Assembly (NCBI RefSeq): GCF_003344865.1
Contig: NZ_CP031165.1
Location: 5,523,910-5,587,909, forward strand
DNA: 64,000 nt
From: Euzebya pacifica
GTDB taxonomy: Bacteria; Actinomycetota; Nitriliruptoria; Euzebyales; Euzebyaceae
Direction of reading: 5' to 3'
The notes beneath the pieces are model-generated. The model made no database searches and had not been told where the DNA came from. It saw only the letters and a list, made by a program, of their open reading frames with translations. Below, one piece after another: positions 10,954 through 17,464 of the stretch. Every line of letters starts with the position of its first letter. Position 1 is the stretch's first letter. A program made the position numbers and the translations under genes.

Positions 10954-12543
10954 TCATTCGCAGAACTGCAGGGCACCCCCGCCGTAGAGCGCGGAGACCT
11001 GCGCGTTGGGGGTGTTGCCGTCCAGGATCGCGTCGAGCGGGCCACGGTGAGTGTCGATCACCGCGATGGGCGGCGGGAACCCCTCGGGCTCGCCCTCCCG
11101 CAGCACGTAGTCGATGCCGAAGAACGCCTCGAGCTCGCGGCTGGTGCTGCCGACAGTCGCGCCCTCCGGGGTGGTGAGACGCCCGTCCTGGGGCACGTCG
11201 TCACCGTCGAGGATCCAGCCGTCGAAGAACATCTCCTCCTGCACGGCCTCGGCGAACGTCGCGGTCAGGCCGTTGGCGAACGTCACGGCGCGACTGGCGG
11301 GACCGTCGGGGCCGGCCAGCTCGCAGCCTGGCTGGACGCGCCCCGTGTCGTTGGTGGGTGCGCCGAACTCCGCGACCATCGCCTCGAGGGCAACATCCGC
11401 CGGTTGGCCGAAGTCGATGCCCCTCCCGATGCCGTCGCCGCGGAGCTCCACCGGTCCGGTCGGTGCGGATGCGCCATCGCCGTCCGGGCAGATCTGGGCG
11501 CCTGCCACCCGTTCGTCGCTGATCATCGAGGTCGGGCCGGCGACCAGCACCTCTGTGGGACGGGCGCAGGCCAGGACGCCCTGGGTCGCCTCGGAGTCGA
11601 CCTCCGGGTTGATCGCGAGGATGCCACCGCCGAGGGATCCGACGATGGGGGAGGTGGCCAGGCCGTAGGCCCAGCCCTGCTCGTCGAAGAGGTTGACCAC
11701 CGCCATCGCACGCGGCGCGCCGTAGCCGTCGCGGAGGACCTGGCGGAAGATCGTCGCAGCGGTCTCGTCGCGGGAGGCCCCGGCGACCCGGCGGACCGGC
11801 GCGTCGATCTGCTCGACCGCGGACTCGCTGATCGCGGAGCTACCACCGAGGACGGTGACGCGACGCGGGGTCCGGCCGGCCAGCCAGGTGCTGATGGAGG
11901 GGTGCAGCTCGTCGCTGGGGGTGAACAGGATCGGTTGCCTGTTGCTGGAGGCGGCGGGGCCCGCTGCGACGCTGTCGGCCCACGCGGCGGTGGGGTTGTC
12001 GTCGGAACCGAACGCCCGGGCGACGAAGACCTCGTAAGACGCGGGCTCGGCATCGTCACCGAGGACGTAGTCGGCCACCGCAACGGCCGTCTCGTAGCGC
12101 GTCGCCCCGGCCAGGCGGATGACCGGGCGGTCGCCGGGAAGCGCGTCCAGCTGCGCCTCGACCTGCGGGTCGATGACGGCTGTCCCGCCGATGATCGTGA
12201 ACTCGCCCTGCGGGTCCAGCACCACCCGGTCGAGCTCGGCCAGGGTGTCGGCGTCCAGCGGCTGACCGGGGCTGGCGAAGAAGATCGCGCCGAAGCTGGT
12301 CAGGGCGCTGGCAGCCAGCGCGTCGGCGAACGCGACGTCGGAGACGATCACGCCCTTGTCGACGCCGAAGTCGTTGACGGCGCGGGACAGGTTCACCGCG
12401 TAGGCGGCCGGGGTGTCCCCGTCGATGCGGGCGACCGCGTCAGGCGTGTTGGAGAAGGGGTCGGGGGCGTACTGGGCGGACACAGGCACCACCGACAGCA
12501 CGAGCGCCGCCACGAGGACGACGAGGGACAACGAACGACGCAA
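10954..12543 (-). CDS. Secreted cell-wall-binding repeat 2 (CWB2) protein
   Basis: A 529-residue exported protein. The signal peptide RRSLSLVVLVAALVLSVVPVSA ends near residue 23, followed by CWB2-type repeats with their FADALAASAL, TIIGGTAVIDP, RLAGATRYETAVAVADYVL and TVLGGSSAISE motifs. These modules bind anionic polymers of the cell wall in other bacteria. The C-terminal 180 residues lack clear repeats and may be a separate domain. The start is TTG at 12543, chosen because an AGGAG site lies eight bases upstream and it gives a complete signal peptide. It is convergent with the VOC gene. Confidence 0.88.
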   Translation of the reverse strand: MRRSLSLVVLVAALVLSVVPVSAQYAPDPFSNTPDAVARIDGDTPAAYAVNLSRAVNDFGVDKGVIVSDVAFADALAASALTSFGAIFFASPGQPLDADTLAELDRVVLDPQGEFTIIGGTAVIDPQVEAQLDALPGDRPVIRLAGATRYETAVAVADYVLGDDAEPASYEVFVARAFGSDDNPTAAWADSVAAGPAASSNRQPILFTPSDELHPSISTWLAGRTPRRVTVLGGSSAISESAVEQIDAPVRRVAGASRDETAATIFRQVLRDGYGAPRAMAVVNLFDEQGWAYGLATSPIVGSLGGGILAINPEVDSEATQGVLACARPTEVLVAGPTSMISDERVAGAQICPDGDGASAPTGPVELRGDGIGRGIDFGQPADVALEAMVAEFGAPTNDTGRVQPGCELAGPDGPASRAVTFANGLTATFAEAVQEEMFFDGWILDGDDVPQDGRLTTPEGATVGSTSRELEAFFGIDYVLREGEPEGFPPPIAVIDTHRGPLDAILDGNTPNAQVSALYGGGALQFCE

Positions 12544-12644: not shown

Positions 12645-13871
12645 TCAGCCGTAGGCGGCGCGGAGGGTGTCCAGGGCCGAGGCGACGACGGCGCCGTCGT
12701 CCAGCGTCGCGAGGCGGCGCGCGGTCGACCCGGCGTTGAACCCCATCAGGGCCGGCCGGCCGTTGACGGGCAGCAGGTTGACCCACTCGGCCCATTCCCC
12801 GTCGGTGGTGCCCACGATGCGGATCCCCGCGACGTCCTCGGGCCAGAACGGCTCGTCGAAGACCAGGACGGCCTTGTCGAGCACTCCCATGCCGAGCCGA
12901 TCGATGGCCCCGCGAGTGGCGGCAGGCAGTGGCGGATCGAACGTGATCGACCCGGCCTTCAGGACACCGAGCGGCACGGTGACGATGACGCCGTCGGCCT
13001 CGATGCGCCCCCAGGGACCGGCGACCACCACCCCGTCGGGACCGTGGACCACGTCGGTCACGGGGGCGCCCAGCCGCAGGTCGTCGATCGCCTCCTCCAG
13101 CACCTCCAGCAACGTGAGGTACCCGGCCGGCACCAGCGCGTCGCCGCCGCCCAGCGCGTCCCCCTCGCCGGCCGCGTCGGGGGACACGTCGTCGAGGTCG
13201 GCACCCAGGTCACGCTCCAGCGAGGCAGCGGCCTCGGCGGTGCCGTCGTCGGTGTCGAGCTCGTGACGGTCGGCGCCGTCGTAGTCGAACTCGTGCAGGT
13301 CGACGGCGGCGTCCTCGGCCAGGTCGGTCAGGGGGTTGCCGCGCGTCCCGTGGATCCAGCTGGCACCGAGGTCGACGGGGAACCCCAGCGAGTGGTCGGT
13401 CCACACGCGGCCGCCGATCCGGTCCCGGGCCTCGAGGACCACGACGTCGATGTCCTCCTCGACGAGCGTGGCCGCAGCTGCCAACCCTGCCGCGCCGGCG
13501 CCGATGACCACGACACGCCCGGCGTCGGCCTCGTAGGCCAGCTCCGCAGCGTCGACGCCGCTGAGCAGCGCGCCGTGCACGGTGGCCGGGTAGTCCTCGT
13601 GGACCGCTTCCCCCGCGATGACGAGCGTGTCCCCGATCGGGGTGCGCAGGATCTCCCGATCCTCGGGAGTCGAGCCGACGGCAAGGAAGCTGTAGCTCCC
13701 GCCCGCCAGCGGGTCGGCGGCCCAGCGGGTGACGCGTGCGGCGGTCGGCTGGGTGACGGGACGGCCGGTTCGCGGCTCGACCACCTCCTCCGCACAACCA
13801 CCCAGCAGCACCCCGCCGGCTGCGAGCGCCGTGCGAAGCATCTGTCGACGGGTCCACGACGGTGCGGTCAT
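12645..13871 (-). CDS. Flavin-containing amine oxidase, circularly permuted, Tat-exported lipoprotein
   Basis: A 408-residue FAD-dependent amine oxidase-like protein with its blocks in permuted order. Residues 1-26 form a twin-arginine lipoprotein signal (TRRQMLRTALAAGGVLLGGC). Residues 46-113 carry the segment that normally ends the family: VTRWAADPLAGGSYSF, then IAGEAVHEDYPATVHGALLSG. Only then comes the usual N-terminal FAD Rossmann motif RVVVIGAGAAGLAAA (119-133) with VVVLEARDRIGGRVW and DLGASWIHG. The protein ends at SALDTLRAAYG, the point where a normal family member would continue into the VTRW block. Substrate may be a mono- or polyamine. It should act outside the membrane. The reading frame is intact throughout. 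Confidence 0.9.
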   Translation of the reverse strand: MTAPSWTRRQMLRTALAAGGVLLGGCAEEVVEPRTGRPVTQPTAARVTRWAADPLAGGSYSFLAVGSTPEDREILRTPIGDTLVIAGEAVHEDYPATVHGALLSGVDAAELAYEADAGRVVVIGAGAAGLAAAATLVEEDIDVVVLEARDRIGGRVWTDHSLGFPVDLGASWIHGTRGNPLTDLAEDAAVDLHEFDYDGADRHELDTDDGTAEAAASLERDLGADLDDVSPDAAGEGDALGGGDALVPAGYLTLLEVLEEAIDDLRLGAPVTDVVHGPDGVVVAGPWGRIEADGVIVTVPLGVLKAGSITFDPPLPAATRGAIDRLGMGVLDKAVLVFDEPFWPEDVAGIRIVGTTDGEWAEWVNLLPVNGRPALMGFNAGSTARRLATLDDGAVVASALDTLRAAYG

Positions 13872-14173
13872 CTGCGCCACGCCTGGGGGAGCCGCGCGCC
13901 CGGCAGGACCATCACCGCCCCCGAGGGCAGCACCACGCCGACTGTCCAGCCGACCAGCTCCGACACGCATCGCGTCCATCATCACCGATCGTGCCGGGAG
14001 CCGTCGCGGGCCGGTCCCATCGGCGGCGCTGAATCGTTCCATCGCCGGTGGCACGCCGTTCACCTCCCGACCGGGCACACGCAAGCGCCGGTTTGCCGGA
14101 CACGACGACGGTGCGCGGCTGTCCGCCCGACACGGCGGGCTCAGCCGACCCTCGACCTCCCGAACGGAGCATC
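13872..14173. other. Intergenic region between divergent amine oxidase and metallophosphatase genes
   Basis: About 300 bases with no convincing gene. It must hold both divergent promoters, but I see no clear -35/-10 pair. Low-complexity reading frames here are GC-driven. Confidence 0.5.
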
Positions 14174-17100
14174 GTGTTCCCCCTCCCCGCCGCCCTCGGC
14201 GGACGACCCCTCGCACCCACCCCACGTGCGCTCGTCGTCCTCCTGACCGCCGCCCTCCTGGCCGGCCTGCTTGCCGTCCCCTCCCGCCCGGCTGAGGCGA
14301 CTGCCTCCGCGCCGGCCACGGACGACGCCGAGCTCGCCTCCCGCTTCACGCTGGCCGTCCTGCCCGACACACAGTTCTACTCCCGCTACGCCGCCGACCA
14401 GTTCCAGCCTCGGTACGGCAGCAACCCCTACGCCGTGCAGACCCAGTGGCTGGCCGAACACGCCGACGAGCTGAACATCCCCTTCGTGACCCACCTCGGC
14501 GACCTCGTCGACCGCGTCGGCGTCACCGGTGAGTGGCAGGTGGCCGACGCCGCCCACCAGACGCTGGAGGATGCCGGGCTGCCCTACTCCGTCCTGCCCG
14601 GCAACCACGACGTCCGCAACAGCAACGACCAGCTCGTCGACACCGACTACGACCTCGCCAACGAGCCGTTCCTCGACTGGTTCCCGATCTCGCGCGCGGC
14701 CGCCCTGCCCACCTTCGGCGGTGCGGACCCGACCGGCCTGAACCGGTGGCACGTGTTCGAGGCACAGGGACAGGAGTTCCTCGTCCTGGCGCTGGCCTGG
14801 CGGTCCTCAGACGCGACCCTGGCCTGGGCCGACGACGTCATCGACGCCCACCCCGACCTGCCGGTGATCCTCACCTCCCACTCCATCCTCAGCATCAAGG
14901 CCGACGCCGAGTCCCCCGAGGAGACCGCCTACGGCCTGAAGCTGTGGAACGACCTGATCCGCGGCAACGACCAGATCTTCATGACCCTCAACGGGCACTT
15001 CCACGGCGCCACCCGGCTGACCAAGACCAACGACTTCGGCAACCCCGTCACCCAGATCCTGATGGACTACCAGATGGCCTACGACGGCGGCAACGGCTAC
15101 CTCGGCCTGATGGAGTTCGACCTGACCGCTGGTGAGGTGTCGGTGCTGACCGGCTCGCCCTGGGTCGTCGCCAAGCCGCAGGAGGTGCTGACGCCCTACG
15201 ACCAGGCGATCCTGGAGGGGCCCAACCAGGCCTTCACCTTCGAGATGGACTTCGCCGGCCGCTACGACGGCTTCGACGCCGGCCCGGCCGACCAGCCATC
15301 GCTGATCCAGGCTGCACGCGACATCCTGCTCGACGGGTTCGAGGCCCCCGACGGCGTGGCGCTGGAGCAAGCCGGCTCGCGCGATGACTTCGTGCCCGTC
15401 GAGGGCACCGTCGCCCACTGGCGCTTCGACGGCGAGGACGGGCCGGTCAGCGAGGACGTGGTCTTCGACGACATCGCCGGTGACGCGGACCTGCGTCGGG
15501 TCGCCATCGAGGACTCCGGTGCCACCGGGGCCGAGCTCGGCGACGTCGTCCTGACCCACGACGCCAACCCGTTCTCCGCCGACGGCGCCGCGGTCTGCTT
15601 CACCAACGCCGACAAGCAGACCAACCGCTACAGCTACCTGACCTCCCCGTCGGACGTGGCCGCCACCGAGGACCACCTGGAAGAGGGGTACACCATCGAG
15701 ACGTTCGTCCTGATCGACGAGGACTGGACCGCTGACGCCAACGCCTGGTCCAAGGTCCTCGTGCGGGCCGGGAACCGCTCGACCATTCCCGGCATGCCGT
15801 GGAGTCGCTGGGACTACACCGCCTCACCGGTCGCCCTGGGCTTCTCCAACCTGCGGGAGTTCCAGTGGACCGAGGTGCCCGTCGAGACGGCCAAGGGTGA
15901 CCGCACCGCGTGGTCGGGGGAGATCATCCTCGGCCGATGGCTGCACGTCGCCATCGTCAACGACGTCGAGGCCGCCACCACGACCATGTACGTCGACGGT
16001 GCGCCGGTGCTGCGCAACGCCACCGACACCGGCGGGCACAGCCTCAACGCCGGGATGCCGTGGTTGTTCGGCGTCGACTGGGTCGACGACGGACCGACCA
16101 ACGGCTGGAACGGCTGCATCGGCGAGACGCGAGTCATCGACCACCCGACCGGACCGACGGAGTGGCTGACCGCCCGGCCGTCGCTCGCCGGCCTGACGGT
16201 CGACACGACGCCCGACGACCGGGTGCCCCACGGGACCACCGAGGTCGAGCTCGCCGGCACCGGCACCCCCCGCGCCACCGTGACCGTGGGCGGCGACCTG
16301 GACGGCACGACCGTCGTCGGGGAGGACGGCACCTGGCGTGTCGTCGTCCCGCTGTCCGGCCACGGTGTCCGGACCTGGACGGTCACCCAGGGCTTCGGGA
16401 CCCGCACCAGCGACCCGCTGACCGGGACCTTCCGGATCGCCGCCCCGGACCGACCCGACGGACCCACCGAAGAGCCCACCGAGGAGCCGACCGAACAGCC
16501 CACCGACGGGCCGACCGAGGAACCCACCGAGCCGGCCGACGGGTGGTTCCGGACCCCGTTCGGCCACGACGACGAGCCGACCATGCGCATGGCCGGTGGC
16601 GATCGTGTCGCCACCGCCGTGGAGCTCAGCCGCGAGGCCTTCGTCCCCGGCGTGCCCGTGGTGGTCCTCGTGCGGGCGGACTCCTTCGCCGACGCGATCT
16701 CCGCCGGTCCCGCCGCGGCGCACCTCGGCGGCCCGGTGCTGCTGGCCGGCGACACCCTGCCGCAGGCCACGGCCGACGAGATCGACCGCCTGCGCCCGGC
16801 GTCGGTCGTCATCGTCGGCGGCACCTCGGCCATCAGCGACACGGTGGCGTCGCAGGTCGCGGCGTTGACCGAAGGCGACGTCGTCCGCTACAGCGGACCC
16901 GACCGCTTCTCGACCTCGGCAGCCGTTGCCGAGGGGGTCTTCGACGACGAGGCAGCCGTGGTCCTCGCCACTGGCTGGAACTTCCCCGACGCCCTCGGCG
17001 GTGGGGTGCTGGCCGCACGCGAGGGCGGTCCCGTCCTGCTGGTGGACGACGCCATGCCCGGCCTGCTGGCGGATCGGTCGCCGTCCCGCGTGACGGTGCT

Positions 17101-17464
17101 GGGCGGCACGTCGGCGTTGCCCGCGTCGCTGGACGACGAGATCGCCGAGGCCACCGGGGCCGAGGTGCGCCGCCTCGCTGGGGACACCCGGTTCGAGACG
17201 GCCGCCCTGGTTGCCCGTGCGGCGTTCCCCGACGGCAGCCCGACCGCGATGCTGGCGACGGGTGGCAGCTTCGCCGATGCCCTGGCCGGTGTGCCGGTGG
17301 CCGCCCTGTCGGGCTCGCCGCTGCTGCTGACCGAGCACGATGCGCTGCCGGCCTCGACCGAGGCGTACCTGCGGGAGCACATGCCGCAGGTGCTGCTGCT
17401 CGGTGGTGACAGCGCCATCAGCACGTCGTTGCAGGAGGTGTTGGCCGAGCTGCTGGCCGGCTGA
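14174..17464 (+). CDS. Secreted calcineurin-like metallophosphoesterase with LamG-like and CWB2 domains
   Basis: A 1096-residue exported modular enzyme. A signal peptide (about residues 18-42) is followed by a calcineurin-like phosphoesterase with DTQ at 65-67, GD at 109-110, GNHD at 143-146 and GHFHG near 275. A concanavalin/LamG-like domain spans about 409-665 (VAHWRFDGEDG and on). An Ig-like stretch and a Pro-Thr-Glu linker (repeated PTEEPTEE units, about 763-787) lead to three CWB2 repeats from about 803 to the end. It probably hydrolyses a phosphoester while fixed to the wall. The GTG at 14174 is preceded by GGAG and opens directly into the signal sequence. Confidence 0.9.
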   Translation: MFPLPAALGGRPLAPTPRALVVLLTAALLAGLLAVPSRPAEATASAPATDDAELASRFTLAVLPDTQFYSRYAADQFQPRYGSNPYAVQTQWLAEHADELNIPFVTHLGDLVDRVGVTGEWQVADAAHQTLEDAGLPYSVLPGNHDVRNSNDQLVDTDYDLANEPFLDWFPISRAAALPTFGGADPTGLNRWHVFEAQGQEFLVLALAWRSSDATLAWADDVIDAHPDLPVILTSHSILSIKADAESPEETAYGLKLWNDLIRGNDQIFMTLNGHFHGATRLTKTNDFGNPVTQILMDYQMAYDGGNGYLGLMEFDLTAGEVSVLTGSPWVVAKPQEVLTPYDQAILEGPNQAFTFEMDFAGRYDGFDAGPADQPSLIQAARDILLDGFEAPDGVALEQAGSRDDFVPVEGTVAHWRFDGEDGPVSEDVVFDDIAGDADLRRVAIEDSGATGAELGDVVLTHDANPFSADGAAVCFTNADKQTNRYSYLTSPSDVAATEDHLEEGYTIETFVLIDEDWTADANAWSKVLVRAGNRSTIPGMPWSRWDYTASPVALGFSNLREFQWTEVPVETAKGDRTAWSGEIILGRWLHVAIVNDVEAATTTMYVDGAPVLRNATDTGGHSLNAGMPWLFGVDWVDDGPTNGWNGCIGETRVIDHPTGPTEWLTARPSLAGLTVDTTPDDRVPHGTTEVELAGTGTPRATVTVGGDLDGTTVVGEDGTWRVVVPLSGHGVRTWTVTQGFGTRTSDPLTGTFRIAAPDRPDGPTEEPTEEPTEQPTDGPTEEPTEPADGWFRTPFGHDDEPTMRMAGGDRVATAVELSREAFVPGVPVVVLVRADSFADAISAGPAAAHLGGPVLLAGDTLPQATADEIDRLRPASVVIVGGTSAISDTVASQVAALTEGDVVRYSGPDRFSTSAAVAEGVFDDEAAVVLATGWNFPDALGGGVLAAREGGPVLLVDDAMPGLLADRSPSRVTVLGGTSALPASLDDEIAEATGAEVRRLAGDTRFETAALVARAAFPDGSPTAMLATGGSFADALAGVPVAALSGSPLLLTEHDALPASTEAYLREHMPQVLLLGGDSAISTSLQEVLAELLAG

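Follow-up and report, generated by a model that had tools for sequence, protein, structure and literature searches.

A circularly permuted member of the flavin amine oxidoreductase family in Euzebya pacifica and its permuted relatives

Introduction

The fold shared by monoamine oxidase, LSD1 and polyamine oxidase is among the best studied of the flavoenzyme folds. In the canonical order of the family, the FAD-binding Rossmann block comes first and a block carrying the VTRW and GEA motifs comes last. An open frame of 408 aa at 12645–13871 (−) in the stretch of Euzebya pacifica DNA analysed here (64 000 nt of NZ_CP031165.1, referred to as the window) has these blocks in the reverse order, raising the question of whether a natural permuted form of this enzyme exists and, if so, where else it is found and what it does. 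A natural permuted branch in many genera would show that the chain ends of the fold can be moved with the FAD site retained, would supply a template on which new attachment points could be engineered, and would explain why sequence searches return matches in several pieces. We consider it very probable that the gene encodes a circularly permuted family member, which would be exported, lipid-anchored and amine-oxidising, the FAD site, export and activity being predicted.

Order of the conserved blocks

A sequence-only reading of the window had placed the closing block of the family ahead of the FAD Rossmann block, and this was borne out by comparison with both PF01593 and LSD2. In a profile search of the genome itself, successive parts of the protein matched PF01593 positions 369–440 (E 7.5e-14), 2–86 (E 2.4e-20) and 197–370 (E 2.3e-24). 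The two ends of the protein meet at PF01593 369/370 with two profile positions in common and, hence, a single copy is present with no duplication or truncation at that point. When PDB chains were searched using phmmer, residues 38–109 matched LSD2 residues 699–770, residues 100–196 matched 319–416, and residues 218–406 matched 497–694.

The relocated block (block A, VTRW...GEAVHEDYPATVHGALLSG; residues 45–113; 13533..13739 (−)), which corresponds to PF01593 369–440 and LSD2 699–770 and contains the closing GEA...HGA..SG pattern, is the usual C-terminal block of the family, here N-terminal. It is followed by a short fused junction (residues 114–118; 13518..13532 (−)) and by the FAD Rossmann block (residues 119–200; 13272..13517 (−); PF01593 2–86), which includes VVVIGAGAAGL and VLEARDRIGGRVW; the GxGxxG motif is present (VVIGAGAAGL at 121–130) and PF13450 is matched with 59.3 bits. 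A shortened substrate-domain segment (residues 201–244; 13140..13271 (−)) precedes the remainder of the substrate and FAD domains (residues 245–408 and stop; 12645..13139 (−); PF01593 197–370), and the protein ends at ALDTLRAAYG.

In its native order the protein scored 211.1 bits against PF01593 in three stretches, above the family cut-off of 19.8. When it was rotated, a check proposed with the original claim, the score rose to 226.6 bits in two stretches, the larger of which spans 197–440 without a break, and the one gap left, profile 87–196, reflects an internal deletion; the linear relative L020 matched as a single stretch, 1–442. The window gene is a natural circular permutation of one flavin amine oxidoreductase copy. 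The cut lies in the loop preceding the VTRW strand, with approximately five residues linking the old C-terminal helix to what was the first Rossmann strand.

An orthologue in the same genus

A permuted orthologue sharing 91 % identity was found in one further genome of the genus (G022); the other two of the four genomes searched from this genus (G023 and G024) yielded shorter, weaker matches only. The suggestion that permuted relatives might be present in other Nitriliruptoria was borne out within the genus: among the matches listed for 66 genomes of the class, the only stop-free matches crossing the junction were in the window genome itself and the one same-genus genome, and the other permuted members that we found are from outside this class. 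Of the several junction-crossing matches listed with an internal stop, two that were inspected (G022:C27 and G053:C243) were rejected, as both consist of unrelated upstream sequence followed by an ordinary linear start.

Comparison of the orthologue pair gave dN 0.045 and dS 0.28, a ratio of 0.16, and the ratio was 0.041 for residues 120–200. For the junction codons 114–119 it was 1.06, with three nonsynonymous changes, though six codons provide too few sites to weigh. The permuted gene is under purifying selection.

Permuted relatives in other genomes

Of 396 genomes sampled from the phylum, 10 gave a single match crossing the junction (E ≤ 1e-22, the window genome and its sister included). 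Such matches were also present in 13 of 198 genomes of the order to which G310 belongs, in 6 of 198 of the class of G149, and in 4 of 299 of the phylum that includes G611, the record for which is titled Alphaproteobacteria MAG; as the latter three draws were centred on known carriers, the draws overlap and the thresholds were strict, these figures are counts and not rates. A scan of genome contigs for close relatives using the window protein produced 83 pattern stretches, none of which was confirmed. A scan of genome contigs with a junction profile confirmed 504 relatives, and among the best 80 of these there are 22 permuted loci, including one that is broken (L091) and one that is apparently the same as another (L081 and L058). 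The named records among them are from Cryobacterium, Leifsonia, Microbacterium, Naasia, Candidatus Microthrix and Acidimicrobiaceae, together with other MAGs. Permuted loci are also found in records titled Bifidobacterium breve, Alphaproteobacteria and Rhodobacteraceae (the last broken), and the titles of MAGs may be wrong. Permuted relatives thus occur across the Actinomycetota and in genomes sampled from the phylum to which an alphaproteobacterial MAG belongs.

A comparison set of 99 rows was assembled from 39 distinct permuted proteins that include all three blocks, the window protein and its orthologue among them, and 60 linear proteins. Duplicates were left out, as were rows in which any of the three blocks was missing and linear rows scoring below 60 bits for block A or below 300 bits in total. 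L057, L091/L176 and L182, in which one block is absent from the single frame, were kept out of the trees. L176, which is from the same site as L091 in the MAG titled Rhodobacteraceae, is interrupted by a TAG inside the stretch matching the junction and continues in a different frame, and is either a broken copy or the product of a sequencing error.

That the block order is not biological and reflects an assembly error or the chance joining of two gene fragments, an artefact that one window by itself could not rule out, has next to no probability and is in our view refuted by the independent permuted relatives, as the identical order recurs in a protein of a second genome (91 % identity) and across the 39 distinct proteins (counting the window protein and its orthologue), including L092 in NZ_CP050453.1, a record titled complete chromosome, and L069 in a one-contig genome (G271), while the gene is under purifying selection and its pieces add up to one copy.

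A tblastn search of plasmids matched 69 records, whatever their block order. For the window protein, none of the best 25 of 73 NCBIfam models scored above its own cut-off, and the same was true of the models reported at E ≤ 1e-10 for six other permuted proteins. There was no solved permuted structure among the best 60 of 135 PDB sequences retrieved in a profile search with nine permuted proteins; in each of these 60 the best stretch begins at or beyond the Rossmann strand.

Predicted structure

Structures were predicted using AlphaFold2. The model of the window protein, built with the 39 permuted sequences, has a pLDDT of 91.3 and a pTM of 0.89, and that of a distant member, L058, a pLDDT of 89.3 and a pTM of 0.87. 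Both permuted chains are confidently predicted to fold, each as one domain. Residues 1–44 of L058 are of low confidence and, because this protein as modelled begins at GTC, which is not a start codon, its true start is uncertain. In the window model, a helix (98–114) is followed by a strand (119–123) such that the old C-terminal helix continues into the old strand 1, and the mean pLDDT for residues 101–120 is about 98. Using VIA-align, residues 114–408 of the window model were superimposed on residues 380–742 of LSD2 (4fwe) with Z 27.9 and 2.0 Å over 292 residues, and in the corresponding structure alignment residues 134–477 of L058 aligned with LSD1 277–739 (Z 27.7, 2.2 Å, 335 residues); both alignments begin past the moved block. 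From the pTM values and the homology, we infer that the two blocks would still form one FAD site. With a predicted single-domain fold and permuted relatives elsewhere, the original proposal of a permutation at the level of the gene is upheld.

A shortened substrate-domain segment

The substrate-domain stretch represented by PF01593 87–196 was not matched in the window protein. The spacing between the flanking blocks is 45 aa in the window protein, 48 aa in the G022 orthologue and 54 aa in L097, and the medians are 91 aa for the 39 permuted rows and 101 aa for the 60 linear rows. As other permuted members (e.g. L058, L061 and L056) match through PF01593 87–196, this is a local shortening that is separate from the permutation, and the activity or specificity of the window protein may differ as a consequence of it.

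Could the gene be a decaying remnant that has lost its function? The unmatched stretch, and a segment of 45 aa where the permuted median is 91 aa, would fit such a reading. However, the frames are open in both orthologues, the overall dN/dS is 0.16, the AlphaFold2 model is confident and the shortening is common to the orthologue with its 48 aa, so that we regard decay as very unlikely. The shortened segment (window 13140–13271) is found in both the window protein and the G022 orthologue despite the purifying selection on the gene.

The Tat lipoprotein signal and the tether

Residues 1–26 (13794..13871 (−)) form a predicted Tat lipoprotein signal, in which pattern and alignment both identify the twin arginines (residues 8–9), a hydrophobic stretch and a lipobox cysteine (residue 26). 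R8, R9 and C26 are invariant in all nine permuted proteins that were aligned. A linker (residues 27–44; 13740..13793 (−)) connects the cysteine to the relocated block, the distance from the cysteine to the core being 19.

The combined Tat and lipobox pattern was found in 32 of the 39 permuted rows and in 19 of the 60 linear rows, where the match in L118 was judged false. The classifier is a crude regular expression, an earlier version of which matched fewer rows, and the L118_lin call and Tat-like calls for L170_PERM and several linear rows look false; the frame of L092 is perhaps too short upstream to reveal a signal. Five permuted rows from outside the set of 39 were inspected by eye. L183 has the twin arginines and a cysteine, L188 has the twin arginines without the cysteine, a signal is not clearly present in L187 or L189, and L184 is truncated at the end of its contig. 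The sequence-only reading had supposed that the permutation allowed a Tat lipoprotein signal to be placed on the new N-terminus. This idea is not supported, as linear relatives also carry such signals and seven of the 39 permuted rows are without the pattern; the signal and the permutation are separate traits.

Where the two kinds of protein differ is in the tether. The distance from the cysteine to the folded core has a median of 29.5 residues in 32 permuted proteins (range 19–44) and 15.5 residues in 18 linear ones (range 6–33), a difference for which no significance is claimed because the rows are related, and the tether of the permuted proteins enters the core at a different strand. The window protein would be exported by the Tat system and lipid-anchored via Cys26 on the outer side of the membrane, with the tether at the VTRW strand in place of Rossmann strand 1. 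This change may reorient the enzyme on the membrane.

One origin or several

Quick trees were built from two alignments after the rows had been thinned by hand, by 23 of 99 in an alignment of both blocks and by 33 of 106 in an alignment from the Rossmann block onward that includes more distant rows. For the first (36 of 76 rows permuted), a tree uniting the permuted rows outscored the free quick tree by 37.6 log units, with a p-AU of 0.911. For the second (36 of 73 rows permuted), the united tree was 13.1 log units lower and was not rejected (p-AU 0.332). From these two values, a single origin is compatible with the data, though not demonstrated.

Several independent permutations at one loop would account for the free trees, which require at least three changes of order (both blocks) or five (Rossmann block onward), and for the window protein being about as close to its best linear relatives (49.0 % over shared columns) as to the best permuted one beyond the orthologue (50.4 %). 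Against this, the united tree is the better one for both blocks and is not rejected from the Rossmann block onward, and the permuted proteins have an identical cut and junctions of similar length (7–14 aa). Hence, multiple origins appear unlikely, though with an appreciable chance. Among the ORFs of at least 180 aa scanned at the loci of the relatives, none has the moved block at both ends, and this speaks neither for nor against tandem duplication and trimming, the route suggested initially.

The flavin-site lysine and the electron acceptor

K333 of the window protein (12873–12875 (−)) was aligned by phmmer with the conserved flavin-site lysine of LSD2, and we take this column to be that of the lysine at flavin N5. 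All 60 linear rows have a lysine in this column, as do 22 of the 39 permuted rows, K333 included. The remaining 17 permuted rows (L069, L070, L076, L082, L083, L086, L088, L089, L090, L092, L096, L160, L162 and L164–L167) have T, V, S, A, N, R or L, and hence not all members need be oxidases. All of them except L096 fall in the branch that includes the named Microbacteriaceae, and the Cryobacterium members there retain the lysine. Loss of the lysine in part of the branch provides a natural test of how reactivity with O2 is controlled, and dehydrogenases are possibly present elsewhere in the permuted branch.

In PMC12224317, the flavin-site lysine is tied to O2 reactivity, Tat-FAOs without an adjoining cytochrome c reacted fast with O2, and an adjacent cytochrome c gene marks the FAO dehydrogenases that use this carrier. 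No such gene was seen near the permuted gene, as the CxxCH motif is absent from all frames of at least 90 aa in the 64 kb window. Given the retained lysine and the absence of CxxCH from these frames, electrons are most likely passed to O2 and, with the findings of PMC12224317 on O2, the window protein is probably an exported oxidase. The amine would be oxidised by hydride transfer to FAD.

A membrane-side dehydrogenase passing its electrons to a quinone or another carrier rather than to O2 would suit the predicted lipid anchor, and 17 of the 39 permuted rows are without the lysine that is linked to O2 reactivity in PMC12224317. As the window protein itself has kept the lysine and the scan of the 64 kb window found no CxxCH in its frames, we find this role doubtful, though a real possibility. 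Our best reading is that the window protein is an exported, lipid-anchored amine oxidoreductase, with its FAD site, activity and substrate predicted. A broader picture, in which a single ancient permutation founded a clade of membrane-tethered amine oxidoreductases in the Actinomycetota and beyond, the shift of the tether turned the enzyme, and part of the clade lost the O2-activating lysine to become dehydrogenases feeding a membrane carrier, is tentative and as a whole rather improbable.

Relationship to described proteins

The nearest solved PF01593 relatives are LSD2 and LSD1 and the spermine and polyamine oxidases. The window protein resembles them in its blocks, its Rossmann motif, the predicted fold of residues 114–408 and the lysine column, but is permuted, has no match to PF01593 87–196 and is a predicted Tat lipoprotein. 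LSD1 and LSD2 carry extra tower and SWIRM parts. Linear bacterial Tat amine oxidases (L059, L062 and L104, and NicA2 and Pnao of PMC12224317) share both the family and the twin-arginine signal, and L059, L062 and L104 match the lipobox pattern as the window protein does. However, in the linear proteins the signal runs into the Rossmann strand and the distance from the cysteine to the core is shorter than in the permuted ones. NicA2 and Pnao use a cytochrome c, according to PMC12224317. Natural permutations inside a known fold are likewise reported for cpRAS GTPases (PMC2430557) and for permuted enzymes of the NlpC/P60 kind (PMC3142127), though their folds are unrelated.

The earlier statement that no permuted member of the family had been described agrees with our search of the open (PMC) literature, outside which most subscription journals lie. 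The main texts of PMC12224317 and PMC7576179 do not mention permutation, PMC12667903 does not mention oxidase, FAD, flavin or oxidoreductase, and flavin appears in PMC2395249 solely in a reference. The permuted proteins seemingly represent a genuine branch of a familiar enzyme family that is undescribed in the PMC literature searched.

Gene neighbourhood

A scan for promoters and terminators found nothing, and several of the neighbourhood clusters look like antisense or otherwise non-coding frames. Between the window and the G022 loci, several flanking frames matched, with the downstream neighbour at 82 %. The neighbours at 10954–12543 (−) and 14048–17464 (+) both include CW_binding_2 domains, and the latter, which has no counterpart in the list of frames paired with the G022 locus, also includes a calcineurin-like phosphoesterase and a laminin-G-like domain. 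Besides the gene itself, the largest cluster common to the permuted loci is a multi-span membrane protein found at 19 of 39. One copy of it was searched against Pfam and matched nothing at E 0.001; it is presumably Pr6Pr-like. In the two examples inspected (L069:2762–3484 (−) and L078:4309–4998 (−)), the membrane protein gene is convergent with the permuted gene.
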